A DNA stretch of 50,980 bases from Candidatus Berkelbacteria bacterium (GTDB lineage: Bacteria > Patescibacteriota > UBA1384 > XYA2-FULL-43-10 > CAINNR01). The position numbers and the translations under genes were made by a program. The notes beneath the pieces were generated by a model, which was given only the letters and a program-made list of their open reading frames with translations, did no database searches and was not told where the DNA came from. This document shows, piece by piece, positions 12,812-45,302 of this stretch (positions are counted from its first letter, which is position 1; each line of letters starts with the position of its first letter). The DNA lies in assembly GCA_026397235.1 (NCBI GenBank), contig JAPLVG010000016.1:1-50980 (forward strand), given 5' to 3'.

Positions 12812-13258
12812 ATGAAGAAACTAAAAATCCTGGAATATGCTTTTTATCTTTTAGAATTGCGTGATCGATCAATTGGTGAAATGGAGGAAAAGTTTCGCCG
12901 GAAGGAGTTTGATCCGAAGGAAATAGCCGAGACGATGAAATTTCTTATCGATAAAAATTTTTTGGATGATGAAAAGTTTGCAGCCAATTTTGTCCGATTC
13001 AAGAAGTCGATTAAACCAGTCGGCAAGTATTATCTCCAGCAAAAATTAGTAGCGAAAAAAATACCAAAGGAAATAATCGAAAAAACACTGGCGGAAAACA
13101 TTGACGAAGCATCAGAAATTGCCGAATTAGCTGATCGCTGGCTGACTAAAAACACCAAAGTTCCGAAAGAAAAAATCTACCAAAAACTCACGCGGCATTT
13201 ATTATCTCGCGGCTTTGAGTGGGAGAAAGTTCGCGAAGTAATTGCCGAGAAATTGTGA
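12812..13258 (+). CDS. recX: Regulatory protein RecX
   Basis: Three-helix repeats (SIGEMEEKFRRKEFDPKEIAETMKFLIDKNFLDDEKFAANFVRFK). Confidence 0.85.
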   Translation: MKKLKILEYAFYLLELRDRSIGEMEEKFRRKEFDPKEIAETMKFLIDKNFLDDEKFAANFVRFKKSIKPVGKYYLQQKLVAKKIPKEIIEKTLAENIDEASEIAELADRWLTKNTKVPKEKIYQKLTRHLLSRGFEWEKVREVIAEKL

Positions 13259-13390
13259 TAAAATAGTTAATGAAAAGCCCTCCTACGCTCAGGTTCGTCT
13301 CGAGGACTACGACCTCGCAGCCGAAACTTCGCTTCGGAAGGGCGCGACAAAATACTATTCAATTAAATTAATGAAGTCGCGGAGGGGCGT

Positions 13391-15736
13391 ATGGCAAAAA
13401 AAGTAAATCACAAACCGTTTGTTCTCTGGTTTAAGGATGTCGGCAAAGACGACACTGAAGTTGTCGGTGGCAAAGGGGCGAATCTAGGTGAACTAACTCG
13501 TGGTGGTTTTCCAGTGCCAAATGGTTTTATTGTTACGGTTGATGCTTACTATTATTTTCTAGAAAAAACAGGAATTGGTCCGGCAATTACCAAAGCGCTA
13601 AAAGGAATAAACCCTGAGGATTCGAAAAAACTCAATTCACTATCGAAAATCATCAAAAAACATATTCTCTCGGCAAAAATGCCGGCAGAAATAGCGCTGG
13701 AAGTTGAGAAAAATTATAAAGAATTGGGCGACGTTGAGGTGGCCGTGCGTTCATCAGCTACGGCTGAAGATGGGGCAGAGGATTCTTTTGCCGGTCAGCA
13801 AATGACCTTTTTGAATACCAAAGGGCCAGCTGATGTTGTTGAGGCGTTACAAAAATGTTACGCTTCGCTATTTGAAGCCAGAGCGATTTATTATCGAGCA
13901 ATCAACAACTATGACCAAATGAAAGTTGGTCTGGCTGTACCGGTCCAGATTATGGTTCAGTCAGAAAAATCTGGGATTATGTTTACTGTTGACCCGGTAA
14001 CAGGCGATACTAACAAAATTATTATTGAAGCTGGTTATGGTTTAGGCGAGGCTATCGTTTCTGGATCAGTAACGCCTGACCGCTACATTGTTGATAAAAC
14101 TACTGAGGCTGTCGTTGCCAAAGAGGTCAATAGCCAGCCCTGGAAGATTGTACGAGCAGCTGGAGGTGGTGATAAGCACGTAGCTGTACCAATGGCCGAC
14201 AGAAAAGATCAAAAGATTACTGATGCGCAAATAATAGAATTGGCCAAACTTGGGAAAAAGATAGAGGAACATTACAATTCACCGCAAGACACTGAATTTG
14301 CGATTTCAGCTGATAAAATTTATATGGTCCAATCACGGCCAATAACAGCATTAAATAAGTCATCCGTTGCCAGTGATCAGTTATCTGAGGGATCAAAAAC
14401 GGAAAACGGACAACCGACAACGGATAACGAGGTCTTACTCCATGGTGCCGCAGCATCATTGGGATCGGCAACCGGACCGGTAAAAATTATTCATAATCGC
14501 GATCAAAATGATTTAATTCAGGAAGGCGATATTTTAGTCACAGAAATGACGACGCCGGACTTTGTTCCGGCAATGAAACGGGCCAAAGGAATTATTACAG
14601 ATACTGGCGGCCGAACTTGTCATGCGGCAATCGTTTCTCGCGAATTGGGGATTCCATGTGTTGTTGGTACCGGGACAGCCACCTCGAAACTAAAAACCGG
14701 GCAAATTGTAACCGTTGATGGTGCCAAAGGATTGGTTTATAAAGGTGCAATTCAAAGCTCAAATATCAAAGCTCAAAATCCAAATGATGCAACCAATCTG
14801 GCCAGGGGAAGCCAAGTATTTGAAGAAGTTCCAATCACCGGAACTAAAGTTTATGTAAATTTGGCTGAGCCAGAAGTTGCGGTTGAGGTCGCCAAATTAC
14901 CAGTTGACGGCGTGGGTTTGCTCCGAGCGGAATTTATGATTGCCGGAATTGGTGAGCATCCAAAAGCTATGATTGCTGATGGGCGGGGAGAAGAGTTCAC
15001 AAACAAATTGGCTCAAGGAATTGGGCAAATTGCTGCTGCTTTTGCTCCGCGGCCAGTAATTTATCGGGCAACCGATTTTAAAACCAATGAATACAGAGGG
15101 CTCAAAGGCGGTGAAAAATATGAAGGCCAGGAAGATAACCCAATGATTGGTATGCGTGGAGCACTTCGATATATTACCAATCCAGACGTTTTTAACTTGG
15201 AACTTGCCGCCATCAAAATTGTTCGTAATAAAATGGATTTGACCAATTTACACGTTATGATTCCATTTGTTCGAACTGTTGATGAAATGCGTAAATGTAA
15301 AGATTTGCTCGAAACTGCCGGGTTGTATCGATCGCCAGACTTTAAGCTTTGGATGATGGTTGAAGTGCCGTCCAACATCATTCTTTTGGAAAAATTCTTA
15401 GCTTTGGGTCTTGATGGCATTTCGCTTGGGACGAATGACCTAACACAACTAACTCTTGGAGTCGATCGCGACAATCAAGAATTGGCAAAATCATTCGATG
15501 AGCGCGATGAAGCGATTTCTTTGTCGGTTGAATATGTAATCAAAACTTGTCGGGCGCACGGAGTTACAATTTCAGTTTGCGGCCAAGCGCCATCGATTTA
15601 TCCAGAATTTACCGAACTAATGGTTCGAAACGGCGCAACTTCGGTTTCAGTAACGCCGGACGTGGCAATCCAAACCCGAAAAATTATCGCTTCGGTTGAA
15701 AAGCGTTTATTGATGCAAAATATTATTGACCGCTAG
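13391..15736 (+). CDS. ppsA: Phosphoenolpyruvate synthase
   Basis: VVGGKGANLGELTRGGFPVPNGF; TDTGGRTCHAAIVSRELGIPCVVGTG; C-terminal TIM barrel. Confidence 0.96.
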   Translation: MAKKVNHKPFVLWFKDVGKDDTEVVGGKGANLGELTRGGFPVPNGFIVTVDAYYYFLEKTGIGPAITKALKGINPEDSKKLNSLSKIIKKHILSAKMPAEIALEVEKNYKELGDVEVAVRSSATAEDGAEDSFAGQQMTFLNTKGPADVVEALQKCYASLFEARAIYYRAINNYDQMKVGLAVPVQIMVQSEKSGIMFTVDPVTGDTNKIIIEAGYGLGEAIVSGSVTPDRYIVDKTTEAVVAKEVNSQPWKIVRAAGGGDKHVAVPMADRKDQKITDAQIIELAKLGKKIEEHYNSPQDTEFAISADKIYMVQSRPITALNKSSVASDQLSEGSKTENGQPTTDNEVLLHGAAASLGSATGPVKIIHNRDQNDLIQEGDILVTEMTTPDFVPAMKRAKGIITDTGGRTCHAAIVSRELGIPCVVGTGTATSKLKTGQIVTVDGAKGLVYKGAIQSSNIKAQNPNDATNLARGSQVFEEVPITGTKVYVNLAEPEVAVEVAKLPVDGVGLLRAEFMIAGIGEHPKAMIADGRGEEFTNKLAQGIGQIAAAFAPRPVIYRATDFKTNEYRGLKGGEKYEGQEDNPMIGMRGALRYITNPDVFNLELAAIKIVRNKMDLTNLHVMIPFVRTVDEMRKCKDLLETAGLYRSPDFKLWMMVEVPSNIILLEKFLALGLDGISLGTNDLTQLTLGVDRDNQELAKSFDERDEAISLSVEYVIKTCRAHGVTISVCGQAPSIYPEFTELMVRNGATSVSVTPDVAIQTRKIIASVEKRLLMQNIIDR

Positions 15737-44579: not shown

Positions 44580-44710
44580 AATTCCTCCTTGGTTAATTTA
44601 ATAATATTATAGCAAAAAACCGAATTATCCTGTTCCATTTACATTCAACTGGTTTTTTGCTAAGATTTTTCTGTATTCCCCGGTAGCTCAATGGCAGAGC
44701 AATTCGCTGT

Positions 44711-45252
44711 GGCACCTTAAAATTCCTTCATAAATATGAGACAATCTGCTTAATGGAGAAAAGAAAATATCGAGATCGAGCAGAGGAAAACAAAAAAGCC
44801 GTCGCCAAAAGAAGAAAAATGATTAAAGCAATGACGGTTAAGTACAAAGGTGGTAAGTGTTGCGTTTGTGGATACCATAAATGCAGCGCGGCTTTGTATT
44901 TCCACCACATTGATGATAGTGACAAAAGCTTTGGTTTATCCCTTAGGGGTTTGACCCGGTCATGGGCAAGAACAAAGGCCGAAGCTGATAAATGTGTATT
45001 AGTTTGTGCAAATTGTCATCATGAAATTCATGAAGGAACAACGCAGCTTCCAACAGAAACGTTGGTTGAAAAATCTCGGGATAACGGTGAAGGCTAAGTC
45101 GTAAGATATGCTAATACCGTGGGAACCCAGCACCACTTTTACGTTAGGTTAATGTAAAAGTGGTGCTGGGGCGCCGTAGAGACTAGATACCGAGACTCCT
45201 GTAAAATGGAGATGATATAGTCCACGCTGCTATGAAAATAGTGGATTAAGTG
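44711..45252 (+). other. Group I intron in the anticodon loop (between U35 and U36)
   Basis: IGS GCAGC (45043-45047) pairs with exon GCUGU (G.U at splice site); P3 TCTCGG/CCGAGA; AGAGACTAGA...ATATAGTCC P7 core; terminal G at 45252. Confidence 0.88.
44753..45097 (+). CDS. HNH endonuclease encoded in the group I intron
   Basis: CCVCGYHKCSAALYFHHIDDSDKSF...KCVLVCANCHHEIHEG. Confidence 0.9.
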   Translation: MEKRKYRDRAEENKKAVAKRRKMIKAMTVKYKGGKCCVCGYHKCSAALYFHHIDDSDKSFGLSLRGLTRSWARTKAEADKCVLVCANCHHEIHEGTTQLPTETLVEKSRDNGEG

Positions 45253-45302
45253 TAACGAAAAGGTTGTCCGTTCGAATCGGACCCGGGGAGCCATAAAAAA
45301 TA

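Follow-up and report, generated by a model that had tools for sequence, protein, structure and literature searches.

In the analysed window, a stretch of 50,980 nucleotides from a Candidatus Berkelbacteria bacterium, a tRNA-Asn(GUU) gene on the forward strand is interrupted in its anticodon loop by an intron that carries an endonuclease gene. The 5′ exon (44677-44710) runs to U35 and ends in ...GCTGT, the intron (44711-45252, 542 nt) ends in ...AAGTG with G45252 as its last base, and the 3′ exon (45253-45293, including the CCA end) starts from U36 with TAACG. When the segments 44677-44710 and 45253-45293 were joined, ARAGORN called the resulting 75-nt cloverleaf as tRNA-Asn(gtt), bearing out what had been proposed in an earlier reading made from the letters alone (hereafter the sequence-only reading). 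The splice-site features expected of a group I intron are all in place: the exon sequence GCTGT (44706-44710, the 5′ strand of P1) faces the guide sequence GCAGC with a U.G pair at the 5′ splice site, and the intron terminates in G45252. The Rfam model Intron_gpI (RF00028) matched positions 44988-45244 with 53.6 bits (E=3.9e-12), above its gathering score of 50, so that the covariance-model search proposed in the sequence-only reading gave a positive outcome. The Thr(UGU) label that ARAGORN assigned to the locus when introns were allowed was rejected, since it arises from a misplaced splice site.

The boundaries were independently located by empty sites in close relatives. The tRNA-Asn gene is uninterrupted in the genus-mate G001 and the family-mate G002, and the BLAST pieces that end at 44710 and resume at 45253 in the window lie adjacent in both genomes, breaking exactly at the ends of the intron; the insertion between U35 and U36, the exon-final U, and the intron-final G are thus agreed upon by the sequence and the empty sites alike. 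A survey of intronless alleles in relatives, which had been suggested beforehand, was carried out on 55 genomes of the window's class: the intron-bearing pattern was found in 11, the intronless pattern in 29, both in none, and neither in 15, probably because the patterns were exact. The distribution is therefore sporadic, with 11 of the 55 class genomes carrying the intron and an empty site in the nearest kin.

The ribozyme core lies in the 3′ half of the intron. The 3′ strand of P1, which is the internal guide sequence GCAGC (45043-45047), falls within codons read as T-Q-L-P, and is followed by the P2 hairpin CCAAC/GTTGG (45050-45065, strands 45050-45054 and 45061-45065) and the P3 5′ strand TCTCGG (45074-45079), which pairs with CCGAGA (45190-45195). 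P4 (ACGGTG 45084-45089 with TACCGT 45115-45120), P5 (GGC 45092-45094 with GCT 45110-45112), and P5a occupy 45084-45120, whereas P6 (GG/CC, 45121-45175) is extended by the P6a hairpin at 45126-45170. P2, P4-P5, and P6 were taken from the minimum free energy fold. P7 (GACTA 45181-45185 with TAGTC 45218-45222), placed by the Rfam alignment, encloses P8 (45196-45199/45208-45211) together with the 3′ strand of P3, and the P9 hairpin CTGCTAT/ATAGTGG (45227-45244) was drawn by eye from the Rfam alignment and the sequence. The energy-based fold pairs the P9 region differently because P7 forms a pseudoknot; the helix it forms between 45218-45225 and 45241-45248 was not adopted, being incompatible with the conserved P7, which the program is unable to draw. 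The guide, P2, P3, and P7 were all found where the sequence-only reading had placed them, and its hairpin extending P6 was correct in position but not in length, being 21 bp with a 3-nt loop and not 17 bp.

The 210-nt core folded alone gave P2, P3, P4, P5, P6/P6a, and P8; against shuffled sequences, its z-score was -7.0. In 11 introns of the same core type, all 66 of 66 P3 pairs were kept, with compensatory changes at four of the six positions, and both P7 strands were invariant. When whole 3′ P3 strands were dealt out among the sequences, the real pairing was never equalled in 2000 trials, a result to be read as a guide and not as a probability because the 11 sequences share ancestry. The fold, the P3 covariation, and the Rfam alignment together show the conserved P3-P8 and P4-P6 core with P7, and its motifs resemble those of tRNA introns by eye. 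With the model score, the covariation, the empty sites, and the homologues in agreement, the earlier assignment of the window element to the group I introns, with the tRNA-Asn(GUU) anticodon loop as its site, is confirmed on comparative sequence grounds.

The open reading frame within the intron (44753-45097, forward strand, including the stop codon at 45095-45097) encodes a predicted HNH endonuclease of 114 amino acids. The window protein matched an HNH entry in PHROGs with E=3.8e-27, the Pfam HNH model matched 17 of the 21 family members, and a search of NCBIfam returned no match. As to the beta-beta-alpha metal fold, the AlphaFold model of the window protein (pLDDT 82.6) has viral HNH models as its best matches. 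The invariant residues C36, C39, H51, H52, C85, C88, and H89 are all intact in the window frame, and dN/dS, where computable with or between relatives, was 0.07-0.17, at near-saturated synonymous sites; judged by these ratios, the HNH is under purifying selection. The HNH genes of three homologues (L056, L153, and L109) are frameshifted, and some copies are therefore not active.

The position of the frame relative to the ribozyme is revealed by comparison of intron lengths. The distance from the guide to the 5′ splice site has a median of 8 nt in 67 short introns versus 323 nt in 24 introns longer than 480 nt, with core lengths being similar in the two sets (medians of 221 nt and 235 nt, respectively); the HNH frame therefore starts in the P1 loop, as had been claimed. 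This HNH is typical of the tRNA-Asn introns longer than 480 nt and absent from most of the short ones. Towards its 3′ end, the frame shares sequence with the guide, with P2, with the 5′ strands of P3 and P4, and with the beginning of P5. The sequence-only reading had run the end of the frame through P2 and the 5′ strand of P3; both overlaps hold, although the list was incomplete, as P4 (5′ strand) and P5 (GGC) are overlapped as well. The residues QLP are present in 21 of 24 intronic HNHs versus none of seven freestanding relatives with residues at that place, which suggests that the guide RNA constrains the protein sequence.

The draft genome (925 kb in 28 contigs, 99.7% complete) yielded 45 tRNA-model matches, an inventory of Rfam matches with ARAGORN run on each region, and the ARAGORN anticodons of these 45 include no other tRNA-Asn. 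The pattern of the intronless tRNA-Asn allele likewise found no match in this genome. A second intact tRNA-Asn, which would have spoken against the intron, was thus looked for in the draft and not found, and the intron claim survives. tRNA-Phe is also missing from the anticodons of the 45 matches because it, too, is split: a second tRNA group I intron lies on contig 15 at 13253-13493, in the region of about 13230-13525 (L001 1480-1772), its host read by hand as tRNA-Phe(GAA) divided at about U33/G34. Introns like this one were seen in G001 (L080) and G003 (L067), and the Ile(GAU) label given to it by ARAGORN was rejected as a splice-site misplacement. On the same contig (L001 605-780), a tRNA-Cys-like gene is interrupted in its anticodon loop by an intact tRNA-Cys(GCA); in G001 (L080), the outer gene is continuous. 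Contig 1 carries five Intron_gpI matches in tandem on one strand at about 11.4-15.6 kb (L010), which are probably introns of an rRNA gene.

A scan of a genome collection, in which the 3′ end of the intron had to be followed by a tRNA 3′ half beginning U36-A-A, retrieved at least 118 stretches. At least 107 loci, the window and its class relatives included, were assigned by a script pairing the acceptor and anticodon stems to tRNA-Asn with an intron at U35|U36, five of them after the splice site had been re-placed at CTGT; as the search pattern had been fitted to this one site, the count is no measure of tRNA-Asn against other isotypes. The lineages among the matches listed comprise CPR, Omnitrophota, Cyanobacteriota, Nitrospirota, Elusimicrobiota, Pseudomonadota, Acidobacteriota, Bacteroidota, and others, and IMG/VR viral contigs also carry tRNA-Asn introns. 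Most of the introns surveyed are short and ORF-less. The view that tRNA-Asn is an unusual host does not stand against at least 107 same-site loci, 11 of 55 class genomes, and the phage contigs. Two Pacearchaeota MAGs (L088 and L094) have tRNA-Asn group I introns in tRNAs that start with G1. In three loci (L125, titled Massilia; L128, titled Thiobacillus; and L172), the tRNA reads Thr(UGU) with the same intron pattern. Two viral contigs (L248 and L252) have introns in a tRNA of anticodon UUU (Lys), and in L252 a related HNH lies immediately downstream of that tRNA.

Relatives of the HNH were detected by tblastn in 337 phage records, all with below 60% identity, and the surroundings of the HNH in 24 of these records were inspected as a sample. 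An intact tRNA-Asn(GUU) adjoins the HNH gene in nine of the 11 loci scoring at least 83 bits (Lak-C1, Kaldavass, CR3, XbC2, RCIP0023, phiKp_21, LAh_6, 4_4572, and PC-Liy1) versus two of the 13 lower-scoring ones (VCPH and S-H38), with a Fisher p of 0.003 for a cut at 83 bits picked after the data had been seen. As several of these phages are closely related, the Asn-adjacent HNHs represent approximately six or seven independent lineages. The other lower-scoring HNHs adjoin Ile, Tyr, Ala, Arg, Pro, or Cys tRNAs, or none. A further arrangement is found in L129, L156, and the viral contig L244, in which a freestanding HNH gene lies just upstream of a tRNA-Asn with an ORF-less intron. The HNH gene of L104 likewise stands free and adjoins a tRNA-Asn with an ORF-less intron. 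These four loci are possibly intermediates between the freestanding and intronic states. When viral contigs were searched with a protein pattern based on one HNH alone, no confirmed relative emerged.

The HNH tree, built on 106 columns, intersperses sequences from Omnitrophota and CPR with those of viral contigs and an archaeal MAG and is weakly resolved, 34 of its 59 inner branches being open; only supported groups were used. Two of these, the viral contig L250 with the Omnitrophica locus L126 and G035 with a Pacearchaeota MAG, cross lineages and are consistent with horizontal movement. Since the same HNH family stands free beside tRNA-Asn in phages and lies within introns of the same gene, it has the appearance of a homing endonuclease family directed at tRNA-Asn, with freestanding and intronic members.

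The observations as a whole are very probably best explained by a self-splicing tRNA-Asn group I intron with a homing HNH. In the folded pre-tRNA, the guide GCAGC would hold the 5′ splice site in P1 for attack by an external guanosine; according to group I chemistry, the freed U35 would then attack after the terminal G and restore the anticodon loop. Unspliced RNA would be translated into the 114-amino-acid protein, which would most likely cleave a tRNA-Asn gene lacking the intron, close to where the intron inserts, and repair of the cut allele would copy the intron in, amounting to homing. It is further envisaged that the HNH invaded a tRNA-Asn intron at the P1 loop, its frame running through the guide into the core, with the direction of this step being inferred. 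Counted against this explanation are the short P5 and P6, a P10 helix that is at best weak in the window (the CAAC 5′ of the guide is unpaired with the 3′-exon UAACG), the lack of a clear ribosome-binding site before the frame, the failure of the Pfam HNH model to match the window protein alone, the weak Foldseek hits against the PDB, the top ones of which are HNH proteins but, all having E > 0.05, are too weak to be relied on, and the frameshifted HNH genes of the three homologues. In a broader reading, to which we lean with some reserve, the HNHs would form a two-state homing endonuclease family specific for the tRNA-Asn gene, freestanding in phages and beside some bacterial intron-bearing tRNA-Asn genes, and intronic in the P1 loop, where the frame doubles as the guide and the C-terminus of the protein would therefore be RNA-constrained; the intron itself would be present in numerous bacterial phyla and might also occur in archaea.

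One alternative would have an intron that still splices and an HNH that has lost its homing function, having become a decaying passenger or a maturase confined to helping splicing. This is improbable in our judgement: the frameshifted frames of three relatives and the predominance of short, ORF-less introns would fit a cycle of gain, decay, and loss, yet the window frame is intact, keeps all seven invariant cysteines and histidines, and belongs to a family with low dN/dS wherever this was computable. In a second alternative, the proximity of phage HNHs to tRNA-Asn would be incidental, and the intronic HNH would recognise something else. HNHs of many kinds are indeed scattered in phage tRNA arrays, which are so dense that some tRNA is always close; the lower-scoring relatives adjoin various tRNAs or none, and the 24 loci are a sample with several closely related phages. 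The concentration of tRNA-Asn beside the best-scoring HNHs over some six or seven lineages, and the presence of the same family inside bacterial tRNA-Asn introns, nevertheless make such a coincidence rather unlikely. It is scarcely credible that the tRNA gene here is non-functional or an assembly artefact, with Asn decoding supplied by another tRNA. A second copy could sit in a gap of the 28-contig draft, but the locus lies in the interior of a 73-kb contig, its exons form a perfect tRNA, no further tRNA-Asn was found in a genome 99.7% complete, and many independent genomes share the arrangement.

If the self-splicing reading with a homing HNH holds, an essential and apparently single-copy tRNA would depend on predicted ribozyme splicing in these cells, and the split gene is of a type that standard tRNA finders miss or mislabel. 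With at least 107 introns at the same site and phage cousins of the HNH beside tRNA-Asn, the intron and its HNH have the look of a mobile element that targets tRNA-Asn. A single endonuclease family whose phage members stand free beside the presumed target and whose bacterial members are intronic offers a natural system in which the entry of homing endonuclease genes into introns, and the movement of introns between phages and hosts, could be tested.

The window element appears to be a mobile tRNA group I intron, a kind already known. No description of bacterial tRNA-Asn group I introns, or of an HNH tied to tRNA-Asn, was found in the open-access literature, subscription papers and preprints lying outside the search. 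The introns of Azoarcus tRNA-Ile(CAU), cyanobacterial tRNA-Leu(UAA), and Agrobacterium tRNA-Arg(CCU) are, like the present one, small and located in the anticodon loop with a U.G pair at the 5′ splice site, and share with it a P7 core of the AGAGACTA...ATAGTCC type, but the isotype and the insertion site (U35|U36 of tRNA-Asn) differ. To our knowledge, these classical introns are without an ORF. The cyanobacterial tRNA-fMet introns are also tRNA group I introns whose ORF encodes an endonuclease for their own tRNA gene, I-Ssp6803I; this enzyme is of the PD-(D/E)XK type and not an HNH, and its host is of another isotype. Its specificity for the tRNA-fMet anticodon region is attributed to Bonocora and Shub (2001) in the passage of PMC3984707 that cites them. 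Elsewhere, bacterial group I introns are recorded in tRNA-fMet and Ile2 (tRNAscan-SE 2.0, PMC8450103), in the Leu, fMet, Arg, Gly, and Lys tRNAs of cyanobacteria (PMC5733544), and in some tRNAs of circularised CPR genomes, without detail being given (PMC8172020). The rRNA group I introns of CPR, equally widespread and mobile in the same bacterial group, differ in host and in enzyme, as they encode LAGLIDADG endonucleases (PMC11270868, the main text of which mentions neither tRNA nor HNH). All 39 archaeal group I introns of a 2018 survey were in rRNA (PMC6125680), unlike those in the tRNA-Asn genes of the two Pacearchaeota MAGs. Endonuclease frames that extend from a loop into the ribozyme core have been reviewed in PMC3984707; the window frame differs in that its overlap includes the guide, read as T-Q-L-P. 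Finally, the freestanding HNHs of phage tRNA arrays (PHROGs 2255 and 3106) are clear homologues of the intron protein and adjoin tRNA-Asn, but lie outside any intron in the phage records inspected, and it is the apparent specificity for tRNA-Asn, common to the intronic and the freestanding phage HNHs, that constitutes the unexpected element of this system.
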